Assembly (NCBI RefSeq): GCF_022808855.1
Contig: NZ_JAKZLF010000034.1
Span: 1-55,165 of the forward strand
Length of the DNA stretch: 55,165 bases
Origin: Anaeromyxobacter soli
Lineage (GTDB): Bacteria; Myxococcota; Myxococcia; Myxococcales; Anaeromyxobacteraceae
Direction: 5' to 3'
Under the pieces are notes generated by a model. That model saw only the letters and a program-made list of their open reading frames with translations. It did not search any database and was not told where the DNA came from. Position numbers and translations under genes: made by a program. Each line of letters opens with the position of its first letter. Position 1 is the first letter of the stretch. Below, in pieces: positions 5,478 to 41,508 of this stretch.

Positions 5478-6224
5478 CTAGTAGCCCTTGCTCGGGGGCG
5501 GAGTGGTGCCGCTCGAGCCGGAGCCCGTCGTGCCCGAGTCCGACGGAGGCCGCGTCGTGCCCGTTCCCGTGTCCGAGGGCGGCGTGGTCGTCGTGCCCGT
5601 GCCGGTGCCCGTGCCCGTGCTGGTGTCCGAGGGCGGCGTGGTCGTCGTCGTGCCCGTGCCAGTACCCGTGCCCATGCCGGTGCCGGTGCCCATCGACCCG
5701 GCGGTCATCACGTCGATGCGGTTCACCTGCAGCGTGTCGCCCGAGCCGGAGAAGCTGGCGCGGACCTGGTCGCCTTCCTTGATGTCGCTGAGGGAGGCGC
5801 GCTGCCCGTCCTTCATCACGCGCGTGCTGTCGCTCACCTTCAGCTTCTTGTCGCTGTTCGCGAGCGTGAGCTCCTTCGTGTCACGGTCGAACTTCTCGAC
5901 CTTGCCCGTGAGCTCGTTCTTGCTCATGGACGTGTCGCTGGCAGAGGCGCTGGAGCCGGTGCCCATGTCGGTCGCCGTGCTGCTGGACCCCGTGCCCGTG
6001 CCCATGGTCGAGCCGCTCTGTGACGAGCCGCTCTGTGACGAGCCACTCTGGGACGACGTGGTGCCGCTCTGAGACGACGTCGAGCCGCCCATCCTGTCGT
6101 CGCTCGACTGGCCGCTGGTCGTGGAGCCGGCCGTCGAGCCCGACTGCGCGTGCGCGGGGATGCCCGCGACGAGAAGGCCTGCGACGCCGATACCGGCCAC
6201 GGTTCCCCATCCAAGACGCTTCAT
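5478..6224 (-). CDS. Exported low-complexity protein with DUF5666-like core
   Basis: A 248-residue secreted or periplasmic protein. Residues 1-26 form a signal peptide ending in PAHA. Residues 27 to about 102 are a Ser/Gly/Thr/Gln tract containing SQSGS pentapeptides, three of them encoded by a 15-bp tandem repeat at 6011-6055. Residues from about 103 to 172 form the only globular part (LTGKVEKFDRDTKELTLAN ... IKEGDQVRASFSGSGD), a small beta-barrel pattern like DUF5666. The C-terminal tail is Gly-Thr repeats broken by PPSDT units. The function is unknown; surface or envelope stress roles are guesses. GGGAGGG precedes the ATG at 6224. It is divergent from imuA. Confidence 0.8.
   Translation of the reverse strand: MKRLGWGTVAGIGVAGLLVAGIPAHAQSGSTAGSTTSGQSSDDRMGGSTSSQSGTTSSQSGSSQSGSSQSGSTMGTGTGSSSTATDMGTGSSASASDTSMSKNELTGKVEKFDRDTKELTLANSDKKLKVSDSTRVMKDGQRASLSDIKEGDQVRASFSGSGDTLQVNRIDVMTAGSMGTGTGMGTGTGTGTTTTTPPSDTSTGTGTGTGTTTTPPSDTGTGTTRPPSDSGTTGSGSSGTTPPPSKGY
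6011..6055. repeat. Three tandem 15-bp repeats within the exported protein gene
   Basis: The unit AGCCGCTCTGTGACG occurs twice exactly and once with two changes. On the coding (minus) strand it encodes SQSGS repeats, so copy number changes would keep the frame. Confidence 0.8.
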
Positions 6225-6359: not shown

Positions 6360-6388
6360 TTATGTTCCTGGGCGGAGGCAGCGGCGGC

Positions 6389-7126
6389 ATGTCGGCGGGT
6401 GCGGAGCGTCATCAGCTGGTAGAGCGGCTCCGCGACGAGATCCGTCGTATCGAGCGGCGCCCCGCTCGGCGGGCGGGTGCGCTCGCGTGCGGTCGCCCCG
6501 AGATCGACGCGCTCCTGCCCGAGGGCGGCTTTCGCCGCGGAGCGCTCACGGAGCTGGCGGGCGGGCGGGCGAGCGGGAAGACCGCGATCGCGCTGGCGCT
6601 CTTCGCGGCGCTGGGACCGGGAGACCTCGCCGCCTACGTCGATGGCCGAGGCGAGCTGTATCCGCCGGCGGCCGCGGCGCTCGGGGTCGACCTCGCGCGC
6701 CTGCTCGTCGTGCGGCCCCCGCCGCGCACGTCCGCCGAGGGGCCGGCGCGCGACCCCGCGCTCGTCGCGCTGTGGGCCGCGGAGGCGCTCCTCGCCTCGG
6801 GCGCGTTCGCGGCCGTGGCGGTCGACGTGCCCGTCGCGCGCGCGGTGCGCGGGGCGGACGCGGCCGCGCGCCGCCTCCAGGCGGCCGCCGAGAAAGGCGG
6901 GGCGGTGGGGCTGTGGCTCGCTGCGGTCGGCGGGACGGCGCTCCGCGTGCCGGTGGCCGTGCGGCTCGAGCTGACCGCCGAGGACGGACGGATCGTGGGG
7001 CGCCAGCGGCACGCGGCGGACGAGGCAGCGTGGGCGGGCGGCGCGTCGCTCCTCTCGCGCGCCGCCGGGGTGCGCGGATCGTGGCGCCCTCGGGTGGCGG
7101 ACCCGGAGGATGGCGATGCGGCGTGA
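6389..7126 (+). CDS. imuA: ImuA, RecA-like mutasome accessory protein
   Basis: A RecA/SulA-like protein of 245 residues and the first gene of a translesion-synthesis set. A Walker A-like GGRASGKT with Lys64 follows a GALTELAGG strand, as in ImuA. In other bacteria ImuA acts with ImuB and DnaE2 to copy past DNA damage after SOS induction. The ATG at 6389 has GGAGG at 6374-6378. The earlier ATG at 6362 is rejected because it lies 3 bp after the likely LexA box. The reading frame overlaps imuB. Confidence 0.85.
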   Translation: MSAGAERHQLVERLRDEIRRIERRPARRAGALACGRPEIDALLPEGGFRRGALTELAGGRASGKTAIALALFAALGPGDLAAYVDGRGELYPPAAAALGVDLARLLVVRPPPRTSAEGPARDPALVALWAAEALLASGAFAAVAVDVPVARAVRGADAAARRLQAAAEKGGAVGLWLAAVGGTALRVPVAVRLELTAEDGRIVGRQRHAADEAAWAGGASLLSRAAGVRGSWRPRVADPEDGDAA

Positions 7127-8687
7127 GGCGAGCGGGCTGCGCGTCATCGCGCTGTGCCTCCCCGAGCTGCCGCTCCAGCGGGCGCGGCGCCAGCGCGCCG
7201 ACGGCTGCGACGGGCCGCTGGCGGTCGTCTCCGAGGGTCGGATCGTGCACTGCGATGGCGCGGCGGCCGCCGACGGCGTCCGCCCGGGAGCCACGCTGTC
7301 GGAGGCGCTCGCCGCGTGCGGCCGGCTGCGCACGGTCCCGCTCGATCCCGCGGCCGATCGCGCTGCGCTGCGCGCGGTCGCCGAGGCGGTGCTCCTGCTC
7401 GCGCCCGCGGTCGAGCCGTGCGCGCCGGACGTGGTGCTCCTCGACGCGAGCGCCGCCGGGCTCCTCGCCGGAGGCGCGGGGCGGAACGCCTCGCCAGACG
7501 CCGGAGAGCGGGTCCTCGCGGAGCGCGCGATCGCCGCGGCGGCGGAGATGGGGTACGCGGCGCGCGCGGCGGTCGCGGACGGTCGCGCGGCGGCGCGTGC
7601 GCTCGTGCGGCACGGCGCGTTCTCCGCCCGCACCGGGGAGCTCCTCCACGTCGCGCCCGGGGCGACCGCGGGGGCGATCGCCGCGCTCCCGCTCGAGGCG
7701 CTCGGGCTAACGCCGGCGGTGACGGCGCGGCTCCGCGGGCTCGGGATCGCCGACGCGGGCGCGCTCGCGCGGCTCCCGGCGGGCACCCTCGCGCACCGGT
7801 TCGGGCCGGACGGCGTTGCGGCGGCCCGCCTCGCCCGCGGAGAGGACGACACCCCGCTCTCTCCCTACTTGCCGGAGACGCTGCCGGTCGAGGCGCTCGA
7901 GCTCGAGGCGCCCGCGGAGAGCGCCGAGCCGCTCCTCTTCGCGCTGAAGCGGCTCGCCGACCGGGTCGCCGCGCGCCTCGCCGGGCGCGGCCTCGGTGCG
8001 ACGCGGCTCAAGGTGGTCCTGAAGCTCGATCCGCGCGGCGAGGAGCGGGTCATCGTACCGCTCGCGCAGCCGACCGCCTCCGCCGCGCGCTGGCTCGTGC
8101 CGGCGAAGGAGCACGTGTTCTCGCTGCGGCTCCCCGGGGCGGTGACCGCCGTCGAGCTCGCCGCGATCGAGGTCGCGCCGATCGCGGTGGAGCAGCTCGC
8201 GATCGACGATCGCCCCGAGGCGCTCGCCGCGCTCGAGACCGTCCTCGCGCGGCTCGGGGTCCGGCTCGGCGAGGGCGCGATCTTCGCGGCCGAGCCGGTC
8301 GAGCGGTACCGCCCCGAGGCCGCGTACCGCGCCGTTCCGTTCCGCCCCGCCGTCGCGCGCGCCTCCGCCCTGCGGAGCCTCGGCGGCTCGCCTGGCGCCG
8401 GCGCGCTCGCGCCGTCCGCGGCCGAGCCACGGCCGACGCGGCTCGTGGATCCCCCCACGCCGATCCAGGCGGAAGGCGAGGGGGGACGCGTGACGGCGCT
8501 CCGGGTGGAGGGACGCGCGCGCGCGGTGCTCGCGATGGAGGGGCCGGAGCGGCTGCGGGGGGAGTGGTGGGTGCCCGCGCCGTTCGATCGCGACTACTAC
8601 CGCGTCCGGCTCGACGGCCTGGGGGACTGCTGGGTGTACCGCGACGCCGCCGACGGGCGGCTCTACCTGCACGGATACTTCGACTGA
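7116..8687 (+). CDS. imuB: ImuB, Y-family polymerase-like mutasome hub
   Basis: A 523-residue protein of the Y-family fold. It begins with RVIALCLPELPLQRAR instead of the acidic metal-binding motif of active Y-family polymerases, which is the hallmark of ImuB as a non-catalytic hub that tethers DnaE2 and the sliding clamp. Little-finger-like sequence follows at about residues 240-380. The last 60 residues end in FDRDYYRVRLDGLGDCWVYR and YLHGYFD, a C-terminal pattern typical of ImuB. GGAGG at 7105-7109 is 6 nt before the ATG at 7116, which overlaps the end of imuA; the ATG at 7110 touches the ribosome binding site and is rejected. Confidence 0.87.
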   Translation: MRREASGLRVIALCLPELPLQRARRQRADGCDGPLAVVSEGRIVHCDGAAAADGVRPGATLSEALAACGRLRTVPLDPAADRAALRAVAEAVLLLAPAVEPCAPDVVLLDASAAGLLAGGAGRNASPDAGERVLAERAIAAAAEMGYAARAAVADGRAAARALVRHGAFSARTGELLHVAPGATAGAIAALPLEALGLTPAVTARLRGLGIADAGALARLPAGTLAHRFGPDGVAAARLARGEDDTPLSPYLPETLPVEALELEAPAESAEPLLFALKRLADRVAARLAGRGLGATRLKVVLKLDPRGEERVIVPLAQPTASAARWLVPAKEHVFSLRLPGAVTAVELAAIEVAPIAVEQLAIDDRPEALAALETVLARLGVRLGEGAIFAAEPVERYRPEAAYRAVPFRPAVARASALRSLGGSPGAGALAPSAAEPRPTRLVDPPTPIQAEGEGGRVTALRVEGRARAVLAMEGPERLRGEWWVPAPFDRDYYRVRLDGLGDCWVYRDAADGRLYLHGYFD

Positions 8688-8688
8688 C

Positions 8689-11600
8689 GTGAACCACGAG
8701 CGACGCAGGATCGACACGGGCGAGGTCGGCGCTCCCGGAGCGCGGCGGGAGCCGCGGCCTGCGGGGCCGCCGTATGCGGAGCTCCGCTGCCACTCCTGCT
8801 TCTCCTTCCTCGAGGGCGCGAGCCATCCCGAGGAGCTCGTCGCTCGCGCCGCGGAGCTCGGGCTCTCGGCGCTCGCGCTCACCGACGTGAGCGGGCTGTA
8901 CGGGATCGTCCGTGCGCACACCGAGGCCAAGCGGCGCGGGTTCCCGCTCGTCGTCGGCGCGGAGCTCGTCGTGACGGGGCTCACGCCGGGCCGCCCGGCG
9001 CGGCTCGTGCTGCTCGCTCAGGACCGTGAGGGGTACGCGGGCCTGTGCCGGCTGGCGACGCGCGCCCACGGGGCGGAGGATCCGGCGCGGGCGGCGCCGC
9101 GGCGCCCGCGCGAGGAGGTCGTCCTCGCGCTCGACGCGGTGGCGGGGCGCGCGCGGGGGCTCTTCGCGCTCTATCCCGGCGCCGACGGCGACGCGGCCGC
9201 GCGGCTGAAGGAGATCTTCGGCGCGCGCCTCGCGCTCGCGGTCGCGCGCCACCGGGTGGCGGGCGAGGAGGCGCGCGTGCTCGCGGCGCGCGCCATCGGC
9301 CGGCGGCTCGGGATCCGCGTCGCGGTCACGAACGACGTCCACACGCACGACCGGCGCCGGCAGGTGTTGCAGGACGTGCTCACCTGCGTCCGCCACGGGA
9401 CCACCGTCGATCGCGCGGGCCGCCGCCTCTTCCCGAACGCGGAGCGGACGTTGAAGGGCCCCGAGGAGATGGCGCGGCTGTGGAGCGACTTCCCCGAGGG
9501 GCTCGAGGCCGCGGGGGAGATCGCGGAGACGTGCCGGTTCCGGATGGAGGAGATCCGGGGCGAGCACCCGCTGCCGCCCGTCGTCGTCGATCGCACCGCC
9601 CTCGCCGGCGGCGCGGCGGTCGCCATGTCGAGCCCGCCCCAGGACGAGCGCGCCGTCGCGCCGGTGCCGAACCGCTCGTTGCGAACGACCTCGACCCCGA
9701 CCCCGACCCCGACCCCGACCTCGACCTCGACCTCGACCTCGACCTCGACCTCGGACGACTCAGTCGAACCCGTCACCGGCATGGCGCTCCTCCGCGAGCT
9801 CGTGCGCGAAGGGGCGCGCTGGCGCTACGGCGGGGCGCCTCCGGAGGAGGTCGCCCGGCAGCTCGCGAGGGAGCTCGAGCTCGTCGAGCAGCTCGGGTAC
9901 GCGAGCTACTTCCTCACGGTCTGGGACATCGTTCGCTTCGCGAGATCGCGCGGGATCCTGTGCCAGGGGCGCGGCAGCGCTGCGAACTCCGCGGTCTGCT
10001 TCGTGCTCGGCATCACCGCGATCGACCCCGTCCGCATGGGGCTCCTGTTCGAGCGGTTCATCTCGGCGGAGCGCGGGGAGCCGCCGGACATCGACGTCGA
10101 CTTCGAGCACGAGCGGCGCGAGGAGGTGATCCAGTACGTCTACGAGCGGTACGGGCGCGATCGCGCCGGCATGGTCTGCGAGGTCATCTCCTACCGGGGC
10201 AAGTCCGCGCTCCGGGACGTGGGCAAGGCGCTCGGCCTGTCGCTCGCGCAGGTCGATCGGCTCGCGAAGCTCGTCGGGATGTACGAGGACCTCTCGCAGG
10301 TCGGGCCGGAGCTCCTCGCGCAGGCGGGGCTCGACGTCGAGGCCTCGGAGCGGGTGCGGATGACGCTCGACCTTGCGCGCGAGCTGCAAGGGTTCCCGCG
10401 CCACCTCTCGATCCACGTCGGCGGGTTCGTGATCACGCGCCGGCCGCTCTGCGAGACGGTGCCCATCGAGCCCGCCGCCATGCCCGGGCGGACCATCGTC
10501 CAGTGGGACAAGGACGATCTCGCCGATCTCGATCTGCTGAAGGTCGATCTCCTCGGGCTCGGCATGCTCACCGCGCTCTCTCGCGCGCTCGCGCTCCTCG
10601 CCGCCCATCGGCCGGCGCCGGCGCTCGGTCCCCCTGACCGTCGCGAGGCGGGCGCCGCGGCAGGCCAGTGGCCACACCCGGACTCGCTCGCGACCATCCC
10701 CTCCGAGGACCCGGCCGTCTACGACATGCTCTGCAAGGCGGACTCGATCGGCGTGTTCCAGATCGAGTCCCGCGCGCAGATGTCGCTCGCCCCGCGGCTC
10801 AAGCCCCGGAACTTCTACGACCTCGTCATCTCGGTCGGGATCGTGCGCCCCGGCCCGATCCAGGGCGGGATGATCCACCCGTACCTGCGCCGGCGCGACG
10901 GCAAGGAGCAGGTCCGCTATCCGTACCCGCCGCTCGAGCCCGTCCTCGCGAAGACCCTCGGCGTGCCGCTCTTCCAGGAGCAGATCATGCGCCTCGCCGT
11001 GGTCGCGGCGGGGTTCACGCCCGGCGAGGCCGACGAGCTGCGCCGCCTCATGACGCACCGGCGCTCGCACGAGAAGCTCGCCGCGATGCGGGCACGCCTC
11101 CTCGCGGGCATGGAGCAGCGCGGCATCTCCGCGGCGGACGCGGAGCTCATCTTCCACCAGCTGCTCGGGTTCGCCGGGTACGGCTTCCCGGAGTCGCACT
11201 CCGCGTCGTTCGCGCTGCTCGTCTACGCGTCCGCCTGGATCCGCCGCTACCACCCCGCCGCCTTCGCCTGCGCCCTCCTGAACAGCCAGCCGATGGGCTT
11301 CTACGCGCCGCACACGCTCATCGAGGACGCGAAGCGGCACGGGGTCGAGGTGCGGGGGATCGACGTCTGCGCCAGCGGCTGGGAGAGCGCGCTCGAGGGC
11401 GCGAGGTGCGCGCCTGCGGCTCCCGGCGACACGCCTGCGCTCCGGCTCGGGCTCCACCTCGTGCGCGGGCTGCCGCGCGACGTGGGCGACGCGATCGTCG
11501 CGGCCCGGCGCGCGCGGCCGTTCGCGGACCTCGGAGACCTCGTGCGCCGCGCGGGCGTCTCGCGCGCCTGGCTCGTGCGGCTCGCGGAGGCGGACGTCCT

Positions 11601-12138
11601 GGGACCGCTCGCGCCGGATCGGCGCAGCGCGGTGTGGCGGAGCCTCGCGATGGAGGCGGACGGGGGCGACCTGTTCGCGGGCGTGACCCCGGCGGAGCCG
11701 GACACGGCGCTGCCGCAGGCGAGCGCCGAGGAGGAGGTCTCCGCCGACTTCACGACCACCGGCGTCTCGGTGCGCGGCCACCCGATGGCGGTCCTCCGCG
11801 CCGCGCTCCCGAGCGCGACCGTGCGCACCGCGCGCGAGCTCGCTCGCCTCCCGGACCGTGCCCCGGTGGAGGTCGCCGGGCTCGTCATCGTCCGGCAGCG
11901 ACCCCAGACCGCCGCGGGGATCGTGTTCTTGAGCCTCGAGGACGAGACGGGGATCGCGAACCTCGTCGTGATGCCCGACGTCTACGAACGCTTCCGGCCG
12001 GTGGTGCGCGGCGCGCCGTTCCTCGTCGCGCGCGGCCGGGTGGAGCGGAGCGGGGAGGTCGTGAACGTGCGCGTGAGCTCGGTCGCGCCGCTCGCGCTCG
12101 CCCCGCAGGTGGGGAACCGCGCGCGCGAGTTTCGCTGA
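8689..12138 (+). CDS. dnaE2: DnaE2, error-prone DNA polymerase III alpha subunit
   Basis: A 1149-residue C-family polymerase. The order is an N-terminal PHP domain (YAELRCHSCFSFLEGASHPE), a palm with GRGSAANSAVCFVLGIT and PDIDVDFEHERREEVI carrying the catalytic aspartates, a thumb and finger region, then a helix-hairpin-helix region and a C-terminal OB fold (FLSLEDETGIANLVV). The GTG start lies one base after the imuB stop. DnaE2 inserts nucleotides opposite lesions with ImuA and ImuB. The gene carries a hexanucleotide array at 9688-9753 that adds a Thr-Pro/Thr-Ser tract of about 22 residues between the PHP domain and the palm, a linker not expected in the family. Confidence 0.93.
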   Translation: MNHERRRIDTGEVGAPGARREPRPAGPPYAELRCHSCFSFLEGASHPEELVARAAELGLSALALTDVSGLYGIVRAHTEAKRRGFPLVVGAELVVTGLTPGRPARLVLLAQDREGYAGLCRLATRAHGAEDPARAAPRRPREEVVLALDAVAGRARGLFALYPGADGDAAARLKEIFGARLALAVARHRVAGEEARVLAARAIGRRLGIRVAVTNDVHTHDRRRQVLQDVLTCVRHGTTVDRAGRRLFPNAERTLKGPEEMARLWSDFPEGLEAAGEIAETCRFRMEEIRGEHPLPPVVVDRTALAGGAAVAMSSPPQDERAVAPVPNRSLRTTSTPTPTPTPTSTSTSTSTSTSDDSVEPVTGMALLRELVREGARWRYGGAPPEEVARQLARELELVEQLGYASYFLTVWDIVRFARSRGILCQGRGSAANSAVCFVLGITAIDPVRMGLLFERFISAERGEPPDIDVDFEHERREEVIQYVYERYGRDRAGMVCEVISYRGKSALRDVGKALGLSLAQVDRLAKLVGMYEDLSQVGPELLAQAGLDVEASERVRMTLDLARELQGFPRHLSIHVGGFVITRRPLCETVPIEPAAMPGRTIVQWDKDDLADLDLLKVDLLGLGMLTALSRALALLAAHRPAPALGPPDRREAGAAAGQWPHPDSLATIPSEDPAVYDMLCKADSIGVFQIESRAQMSLAPRLKPRNFYDLVISVGIVRPGPIQGGMIHPYLRRRDGKEQVRYPYPPLEPVLAKTLGVPLFQEQIMRLAVVAAGFTPGEADELRRLMTHRRSHEKLAAMRARLLAGMEQRGISAADAELIFHQLLGFAGYGFPESHSASFALLVYASAWIRRYHPAAFACALLNSQPMGFYAPHTLIEDAKRHGVEVRGIDVCASGWESALEGARCAPAAPGDTPALRLGLHLVRGLPRDVGDAIVAARRARPFADLGDLVRRAGVSRAWLVRLAEADVLGPLAPDRRSAVWRSLAMEADGGDLFAGVTPAEPDTALPQASAEEEVSADFTTTGVSVRGHPMAVLRAALPSATVRTARELARLPDRAPVEVAGLVIVRQRPQTAAGIVFLSLEDETGIANLVVMPDVYERFRPVVRGAPFLVARGRVERSGEVVNVRVSSVAPLALAPQVGNRAREFR
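9688..9753. repeat. Hexanucleotide array (11 units) inside dnaE2
   Basis: Eleven consecutive 6-bp units: one ACCTCG, four ACCCCG and six ACCTCG. They encode (TS)(TP)4(TS)6. Because the unit is six bases, gain or loss of copies keeps the frame. The same unit type forms the intergenic array at 12783. Confidence 0.95.
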
Positions 12139-12735: not shown

Positions 12736-12856
<121 letters not shown>

Positions 12857-26288: not shown

Positions 26289-26668
26289 TTTTGCGGGGAC
26301 TGCGTCCCCGCCCCGCCGACGGCTGGCCGCCGTCGTCGGGGCCCCACCCCTGCTCGGCGGGGCCCGTGAACGGTCGCGCCCGCTTCGCGGGTTCGCGCAG
26401 GGGTGATCGCACGGGGACTGCGTCCCCGCCCCGCCGACGGCTGACCGCCGTCGTCGGGGCCCCACCCCTGCTCGGCGGGGCCCGTGGTCGCGCCCGCTTC
26501 GCGGGTTCGCGACCGTTCCCCGCCGGAGGGGCTTCGCCCCTCCCGCGCTTCGCGCGGGGCCCTCCCGCGAATGGGACCGCGCTCGCGCTCGCCCCGTCGC
26601 GGCGAGCGGGTTCCGACACGCTCTTGCGTGCTTGACCGGCGCGCCCGCGGGGGCGACGCTTCCGGAGC
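26289..26668. other. Gene-free, repeat-filled region after the histidine kinase
   Basis: No credible gene. Besides the tandem repeats it contains GAGGGGCTTCGCCCCTCC and GCGCTTCGCGCGG hairpins up to about 26560, then short sequence leading to the next TTG start. Confidence 0.7.
26294..26525. repeat. Two tandem copies of a GC-rich 118-bp repeat
   Basis: CGGGGACTGCGTCCCCG opens both copies, at 26294 and 26412. Each continues with CCCGCCGACGGCT(G/A)CCGCCGTCG-like arms, TCGGGGCCCCACCCCTGC, GGCGGGGCCCGTG and CGCGCCCGCTTCGCGGG. Copy 1 carries four extra bases and a GGGGTGATCGCA end. They are followed by a further hairpin (GGAGGGGCTTCGCCCCTCC). The pattern matches the copies at 5276 and 37241. Confidence 0.85.
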
Positions 26669-39675: not shown

Positions 39676-41508
39676 ATGACCTTCACGGAAGCAGCGATCG
39701 AGGTGCTGCGGCGCGAAGGAAAGCCCCTCCACTTCAGGAAGCTCACGGAGATCGCCATCCGCGAGAGCCTGCTCGACCACGTCGGGAAGATTCCCGAGGA
39801 GACGATGGCCGATCAGCTCGCCGCGCACTGCCGCCTTCCGCACGAGGACCGGCGGGTGATCCCGGTGCAGCAGGGCACCTTCGCGCTGACCGAATGGGGA
39901 CTCGACGAGGACCCCGCTGGGCTGGAGGCGCTCGTCGAGCCGCCTCCCGACGGGGAGCCCGCTTATCGGGGGCGCGAGCGCCACCCGATCCCCTCCCGCG
40001 AGCTCGCCCGCAGCACCGGGCGTGGCGAGGCGGGCAAGCCGCGTCGCAGGGAGGAGGAGGAGCGGCGCGGGCGCCGCTTCCCGCCGCCCGCGGAGGTCGC
40101 CTACGAGATCCTGGCCGGCGCCGGCCGCGCGCTCTCGCTCGCCGACATCGCCGCGCAGGGCGCGGAGCGGCTGCTCATGCCGGACGCGTTCGTCCGCGAC
40201 GGCGGCTCGCTGCGGGCCGCGCTCGTCGAGGACAACCGCCGGCGCGAGTCGGCCGGGCGCAAGGCGCTGTTCCTCGTCGACGGGGACTCCGTGACGCTCG
40301 TCGCGCAGCCCGAGCCGGGCGAGCGTGTCGCCGCTCCGGCTGCCGCGCGTGCCGCGCCGGTCCAGACCGCGACCGAGCTGCGCCGGGCGGCCCTCGCCGG
40401 GCTGCGCCGCCGCCTGCGCGAGTGCGACGCCGCCACGATCGAGCACGTCGCGTCCCGGCTGCTCGACAAGATGGGGTTCCGCGAGCTCAAGGTCGCGAAG
40501 CGCAGCCGCGAGCACGTGATCTACACGGCGCGGCTCAAGATGGGGCTCGGCGACCTGCGCCACGGGATCCGGATCGTGCGCAACGGCGCGGACGCGTCGC
40601 GGCGCGACGTGACCGAGCTCCGCCGCGACCTCGCCCACTACGGCGCCCAGATCGGCATCGTGGTCAGCGCCGGAGAGGTGGCGCGCGAGGCGCGCGCCGA
40701 GGCGACGGCGGCGGGGCAGCTGCCCATCGTGCTCCTCTGCGGCGAGGCGCTCGCCGAGGCGTTCGCGGACGCGGGGCTCGGCACCGTCCCGGTGGTGATC
40801 CCGGAGGTCGACGACGGCTTCTTCCGCGCCGCGGCCGAGGAGGCCGAGAAGGAGGAGGCGGCCCGGCGTGCCCGGCGCGAGGAGCGCGATCGCCGCGAGG
40901 GCAGGGAGCCTCGCGAGCGCGACCGGGAGCGGGACCGGGACCGGGACCGGGACCGGGAGCCGCGCGGGGCCCGCCGCGAGGAGCGGACCGTGTCCGTCGA
41001 GGCGGTTCAGGCGGCGTCGGAGGAGCCGAGCGGCGCACCGATCGCGGAGCCGGCTGCGGGCGAGGTCATCGCGAGCGCGGCGGCGGCTGCCGAGGCGGTC
41101 GCGCCGTCGCGTCCGCCGCAGCCCGTCGCGCCGCGGGGCGAGACGTCCATCGAGGTGCCCGCAGAGCTGGACGACGAGGGGCCGGAGGGCGAGGAGGACG
41201 AGGACGAGTCCGAGGCCTCGGCCGAGGGTGAGCCCGCCACCGCGTCCGAGGCGAGCGCCGGCGAGGCCGGAGCCGGCGCAGACCGTCGCCGTCGCCGCCG
41301 GCGCAGGCGCCGGCGTGGCGGTCGGGGTCGCTCGCGAGAGGGCGCTCCCCAGGGGCAGGCCGCGGCCGGCGCGGAGGGCGCTGCGGGCGAGGCACCGGCG
41401 CAGGGCGCTCGCGAGGGCGTCGCCGCTCCCGAGGCGCCTGTCGCCGCTCCGCAGTCCGCGCCACCTCCCCCGGCTGCGCGGCAGGACGACGGGGACACCG
41501 GCGGGTAA
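39676..41508 (+). CDS. HARE-HTH protein with Mrr-like domain and Arg-rich tail (610 aa)
   Basis: The first 75 residues (TFTEAAIEVLRREGKPLHFRKLTEIAIRE, VIPVQQGTFALTEWG) match the HARE-HTH winged helix found in restriction enzymes and RNA polymerase delta. A second winged-helix-like unit follows at about 135-205. From about 240 to 378 the sequence resembles Mrr_cat restriction folds (ASRLLDKMGFRELKVAKRS ... AHYGAQIGIVVSAGEVAREA ... LPIVLLCGEALAEAF) but lacks the usual acidic and QxK catalytic residues, so it is probably inactive. An Arg-Asp tract (about 413-427), an acidic part and 11 consecutive Arg (537-547) end the protein. AAGGA is 5 nt before the ATG. No partner methylase is present; a nucleic-acid-binding role is inferred. 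Confidence 0.75.
   Translation: MTFTEAAIEVLRREGKPLHFRKLTEIAIRESLLDHVGKIPEETMADQLAAHCRLPHEDRRVIPVQQGTFALTEWGLDEDPAGLEALVEPPPDGEPAYRGRERHPIPSRELARSTGRGEAGKPRRREEEERRGRRFPPPAEVAYEILAGAGRALSLADIAAQGAERLLMPDAFVRDGGSLRAALVEDNRRRESAGRKALFLVDGDSVTLVAQPEPGERVAAPAAARAAPVQTATELRRAALAGLRRRLRECDAATIEHVASRLLDKMGFRELKVAKRSREHVIYTARLKMGLGDLRHGIRIVRNGADASRRDVTELRRDLAHYGAQIGIVVSAGEVAREARAEATAAGQLPIVLLCGEALAEAFADAGLGTVPVVIPEVDDGFFRAAAEEAEKEEAARRARREERDRREGREPRERDRERDRDRDRDREPRGARREERTVSVEAVQAASEEPSGAPIAEPAAGEVIASAAAAAEAVAPSRPPQPVAPRGETSIEVPAELDDEGPEGEEDEDESEASAEGEPATASEASAGEAGAGADRRRRRRRRRRRGGRGRSREGAPQGQAAAGAEGAAGEAPAQGAREGVAAPEAPVAAPQSAPPPPAARQDDGDTGG
40921..40962. repeat. GACCGG hexanucleotide tract within the HARE-HTH gene
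   Basis: About seven units of GACCGG/GAGCGG encode an Arg-Asp/Arg-Glu run. The unit differs from the GACCCC arrays near dnaE2 at only two positions. Confidence 0.75.

Follow-up and report, generated by a model that had tools for sequence, protein, structure and literature searches.

The Hexanucleotide Array in dnaE2

The window, i.e., the whole stretch of 55,165 nucleotides of Anaeromyxobacter soli DNA analyzed here, contains an error-prone polymerase gene, two further genes of the same cassette and two arrays of the hexanucleotide CGACCN:

6362–7126, + strand: imuA-like RecA homologue, 254 aa (PF00154; NF033429 at 63 bits, not reaching the cut-off of 150)
7110–8687, + strand: imuB-like Y-family polymerase homologue, 525 aa (PF00817, PF11799)
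8689–12138, + strand: dnaE2/imuC, error-prone C-family DNA polymerase, 1149 aa (NF004225, Pfam, fold match)
9586–9768, + strand: predicted disordered PHP–palm linker of DnaE2, residues 300–360, of lineage-variable length (pLDDT about 25–34; comparison with relatives)
9686–9753, + strand: CGACCN array, 11 perfect units, in frame, encoding 11 Thr-Ser/Thr-Pro dipeptides
12738–12856, + strand: second CGACCN array, intergenic, 600 bp downstream of dnaE2 (19.5 copies of CGACCC by TRF)

The initial annotation had assigned the gene at 8689–12138 to dnaE2, and this assignment held. The product matches the NCBIfam error-prone DNA polymerase model NF004225 at 1283 bits (cut-off, 939), and Pfam finds a PHP domain (PF02811, residues 31–170), a polymerase domain (PF07733, residues 367–623) and also PF17657, PF14579 and PF01336, meaning that the PHP, polymerase, HhH and OB domains of the C-family are present. 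The palm motifs PDIDVDF and KVD could be recognized, with D467, D469 and D620 invariant across 35 sequences, and the predicted fold matches solved PolIII alpha subunits. The imuA-like and imuB-like genes lie directly upstream, in the cassette arrangement of DnaE2/ImuC; the imuB-like product scores above threshold with Pfam IMS, and the imuA-like product does so with Pfam RecA while remaining below the NCBIfam ImuA cut-off.

The array is detected by TRF with a period of 6 (11.3 copies, 96% matches, score 108), and direct reading of positions 9686–9751 gives 11 exact CGACCN units whose sixth bases are T, C, C, C, C, T, T, T, T, T and T. It had been placed before at 9688–9753, which is the identical array taken in reading-frame phase. 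Within the ORF the units read ACC TCG or ACC CCG, encoding one Thr-Ser, then four Thr-Pro and then six Thr-Ser dipeptides, 22 residues in all (about 334–355 of DnaE2), which do lie between the PHP domain and the palm, as had been proposed. The tract shows no synonymous variation and is thus a nucleotide repeat rather than a protein sequence written in varied codons. A chance origin was rejected: five consecutive CGACCN units gave 34 + 21 overlapping matches in the genome, and none when the pattern was reversed.

Linker Disorder and Length

In an AlphaFold2 model of DnaE2 (pTM 0.80, from an input alignment of 35 DnaE2 proteins), residues 300–360 have a pLDDT of about 25–34 and are flanked by confident blocks at 85–97, so the linker is predicted to be disordered. 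A second low-confidence loop, Ala/Pro-rich and with pLDDT <50, is found at residues 642–665 (10612–10683 of the window). DnaE2 proteins of other phyla have a short, near-constant loop at the position of the linker, about ten residues from the EYP motif to the next helix; long PHP–palm linkers are a feature of the host's bacterial family.

Between the anchors EHPLPP and YFLTVWD, the segment measures 122 aa here, 152 in the nearest species (G003), 203 in G007, 136–147 in five other congeners and 65–151 in the family's other genera, a range that omits one outlier (L047) whose left anchor matched early. The G003 dnaE2 gene, whose flanks are about 95% identical to ours, carries 27 CGACCN units in a homologous array that starts identically (AACGACCTCGACCCC). 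There are 22 units in the G007 gene, at a different site in the linker and between two in-frame palindrome copies, and 18 and 11 units in G011 and G014, respectively, each elsewhere in the linker. The G007 palindrome is REP-like and reads as AAHPERSDSASAEARSRGTT, in frame on either side of the hexamer array (L046/L157). The dnaE2 genes of five congeners (G001, G002, G004, G005 and G006) contain no CGACCN unit, and in several congeners the hexamer tract is replaced by an unrelated linker rich in Ala and Pro. Longer dnaE2 tracts occur in genomes with a heavier CGACCN load.

These unequal unit counts (11, 27, 22 or 0) mean that linker length varies in frame through the repeats, as had been anticipated; the initial annotation had envisaged differences between strains, and what our comparison establishes, with one genome per species, is a difference between species. 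At that level neither a constant tract length nor varied codons was found among relatives: copy number differs and the codons are uniform. Because the sites differ among relatives, arrays arrived in the DnaE2 linker more than once, and the existence of several separate sites within the family might be a sign that a long linker is selected for.

A Lineage-Specific Family of CGACCN Arrays

The same motif is spread through the genomes of relatives, which makes the dnaE2 tract one member of a lineage-wide family. About 16 arrays are present in this genome and about 45 each in G007 and G003. Overlapping matches to five consecutive units number 55 here, 1048 in G003, 1271 in G007, 250 in G011 and 257 in G009; there are none in G001, G002 and G005, and none with the reversed pattern. 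When array starts were counted in 195 Myxococcota genomes, 13 had CGACCN arrays, 9 of them within the host's family, with the reversed control near zero. The arrays thus occupy many unlinked loci, are lineage-restricted and occur far above chance, but their unit is not invariant, position 6 being a mixture of C, G and T.

An even sample of G007 (1.195 Mb) yielded 16 period-6 arrays, 13 of which were CGACCN, and five arrays in total at periods 2–5 and 7–11, so that CGACCN is almost the sole microsatellite there. No arrays at the tested periods of 3 to 12 were detected in 400 kb sampled from G002. By eye, the list of G007 arrays revealed no bias of array strand relative to replication direction. 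In the window, TRF also reports period-6 arrays of other motifs, outside the CGACCN family, at 5592–5691 and 40921–40958 (CGTGCC; GACCGG), as well as a palindrome-rich 118-bp tandem duplication at 26294–26511 (1.9 copies, 95% identical).

Array Hosts and Reading Frame

Twelve of the 16 arrays classified in this genome, a count that omits one further array duplicating another in sequence, lie inside called genes. The gene caller was home-made; around the tract it recovers imuA, imuB, dnaE2 and other expected genes. Eleven of the 12 genic arrays have sense orientation and are read as ACC NCG codons, encoding Thr-Pro/Ser/Ala; in G007, 5/5 use the Thr-Pro/Ser/Ala frame. The twelfth is antisense; it falls in the part by which a lysyl-tRNA-synthetase-like ORF is extended at its N-terminus, and probably lies upstream of the true start.

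The hosts include two Ser/Thr kinase-like proteins, a SpoIID-like protein, an usher, a TPR protein and an ABC-permease fusion. In a CheA-like hybrid kinase the array follows the Hpt domain, in a PilQ-type secretin it sits between N-terminal AMIN parts, and in a tandem ABC ATPase it separates the two domains. For the secretin two sequences were usable: the array has seven units in this genome, where G003 has two units together with the remnant of a palindrome.

Double-CGACC seeds in genes are in the Thr frame in 9% of cases in G002 and 20% in this genome, the Asp frame and antisense orientations being commoner. Set against that 20%, 11 Thr-frame arrays out of 12 correspond to p = 2e-7, so genic expansion is filtered toward uncharged Thr-Pro/Ser/Ala linkers. 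Selection acts chiefly as a reading-frame filter, and a repeat that spreads at the DNA level can add length to linkers in the repair and essential proteins of a genus.

Five Fixed Bases and One Free

In G007, positions 1–5 of the unit are CGACC at 97–100%, while C, G or T stands at position 6 (A, 0–0.6%), and the 5 coding arrays show the same pattern as the 40 noncoding ones; the invariance of the core is partly ascertained, since most of these arrays were retrieved with a pattern requiring it, the 13 from the even sample having been chosen otherwise. In coding arrays the free position alters the amino acid (Pro, Ser or Ala) and the synonymous third positions are fixed, the reverse of what protein-level selection would leave.

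The position-6 letters of G007 agree at lag 2 (z = 10, a large share of which comes from one long alternating array) more than at lag 1, as duplication of 12-bp blocks would give. Simple slippage does not account for substitutions confined to one position out of six, and the five-fixed/one-free pattern recurs across separate arrays and genera. Shared by coding and noncoding DNA, it offers a testable handle on the way in which such arrays originate.

Elements Adjoining Arrays in G007

Many intergenic CGACCN arrays of G007 adjoin an element of about 1.85 kb that recurs in the genome, its copies being 91–93% identical. The ends of this element are inverted repeats (GATGTGATGAAT/ATTCATCACATC), its ORF codes for an HNH endonuclease domain (PF01844), and it was found between arrays at L326, L327, L328, L329 and L332. 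Its closest relatives are in this genome, G003 and G011. A second array-flanked repeat of G007, about 1.3 kb long (L330; L332, 872–2240), encodes PF05635 proteins, which are four-helix bundles of the 23S-rRNA-intervening-sequence type.

Origin and Effect of the Tract

We favor, with a probability of roughly 0.78, lineage-specific growth of a CGACCN repeat that is tolerated in a disordered and already variable linker of DnaE2, where its length drifts with little effect on the polymerase. The dnaE2 tract is a coding member of the family and presumably grew as blocks of 6 and 12 bp were duplicated in the DNA, through slippage or unequal recombination. Its survival in dnaE2 presumably owes to a unit that leaves the frame intact and encodes uncharged, flexible Thr-Pro/Ser, and to its location in a disordered, variable linker; being tolerated there, it would be free to drift in length between species. 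The presence of arrays between the domains of unrelated multi-domain hosts agrees with this reading. The effect on DnaE2 is probably small, near-neutral, and most likely leaves the polymerase little changed.

The initial annotation had instead seen in the tract a property of dnaE2 that might tune the polymerase. Such a linker, adjusting DnaE2 activity or the contact with ImuB or the clamp in the manner of a contingency locus, would fit the in-frame length differences between species and the repeated arrival of arrays in the DnaE2 linker, in three genera. The same hexamers, however, occur in intergenic DNA and in linkers of unrelated proteins, tract length tracks the genome-wide repeat load, five congeners have an equally intact dnaE2 without an array, some with an unrelated Ala/Pro-rich linker, and DnaE2 in general makes do with a short loop. 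An adaptive linker is therefore unlikely, and a tuning role, while possible, is unsupported. Somewhat less plausible still is that a mobile element, either the HNH element or the REP-like palindromes of G007, makes or spreads the arrays, the dnaE2 tract being a relic of insertion. The arrays on both sides of the 1.85-kb elements in G007, and the two palindrome copies around its DnaE2 array, would be explained in this way. As a general generator of arrays, the HNH element was nevertheless rejected, since arrays occur in G009, where the HNH element finds no match, and the three copies inspected in A. soli have no array nearby (nor was one seen near those inspected in G011); we take the element to have invaded the arrays of G007 rather than to have generated them. 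Seeding by palindromes could be at most a minor route, a remnant lying directly upstream of only 5 of the 45 G007 arrays, against a 2.4% background, and no element adjoins the tract in our window.

Two further accounts carry very little weight. Codon preference could have produced the DNA repeat as a by-product of a conserved Thr-Pro/Thr-Ser protein element, given that ACC, CCG and TCG are presumably favored in a genome of 73% GC. This is highly improbable: it is the amino-acid-changing base that varies in the tract, the element is missing in congeners, and the identical DNA pattern occurs outside genes. Uniform codons and loss in congeners are grounds for rejecting conservation at the protein level. 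An assembly artefact is the least credible account, even for a draft genome in 80 contigs, because the 66 bp of the array are shorter than a common read, the reading frame stays intact, a homologous array with the same start is present in the nearest species, and the reversed control is zero.

Going beyond tolerated repeat growth, one may speculate that CGACCN is an actively spreading repeat, its core kept by a sequence-specific DNA-level process, that supplies Thr-Pro/Ser/Ala linkers to core proteins of one family, including a mutagenic polymerase; this seems to us doubtful, if worth bearing in mind. In any event, the wider repeat family is a more interesting result than a polymerase-specific story.

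Comparison with Known Repeat Systems

The short tandemly repeated repetitive (STRR) sequences of heterocystous cyanobacteria are lineage-specific arrays of short, heptameric units spread through the genome; set beside them by description only, the CGACCN arrays are likewise lineage-specific and dispersed, with units of six bases rather than seven. We found no report of CGACCN-type repeats in Anaeromyxobacter in the open-access literature.

The GGGAATC heptamers of Xanthomonas and Nostoc (PMC4692102) resemble the CGACCN family in that one short motif occupies many loci in certain lineages only and, where a genome is heavily loaded, is mostly intergenic. However, their unit is a fixed seven-base sequence described as G-quadruplex-forming, whereas CGACCN has six bases, one of them free, and has in-frame copies in protein linkers. 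The TAACTGA repeats of Beggiatoaceae, cyanobacteria and Bacteroidetes are also single-motif, dispersed tandem repeats of patchy distribution; they are reported to sit, for the most part, immediately before start codons (PMC4679880), and a regulatory role in translation has been proposed for them; the abstract mentions no free position in these direct repeats.

With phase-variable contingency microsatellites such as the tetranucleotides of Haemophilus influenzae (PMC2651432), the dnaE2 tract shares the location of a microsatellite in a coding region. Unlike those loci, it cannot switch frame, a 6-bp unit within an ORF keeping the frame; its host is a repair polymerase, and no switching phenotype is known for it. 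The distribution of the CGACCN family is thus like that of the known heptamer families, from which it differs in unit length, in its free position and in its placement within protein linkers.
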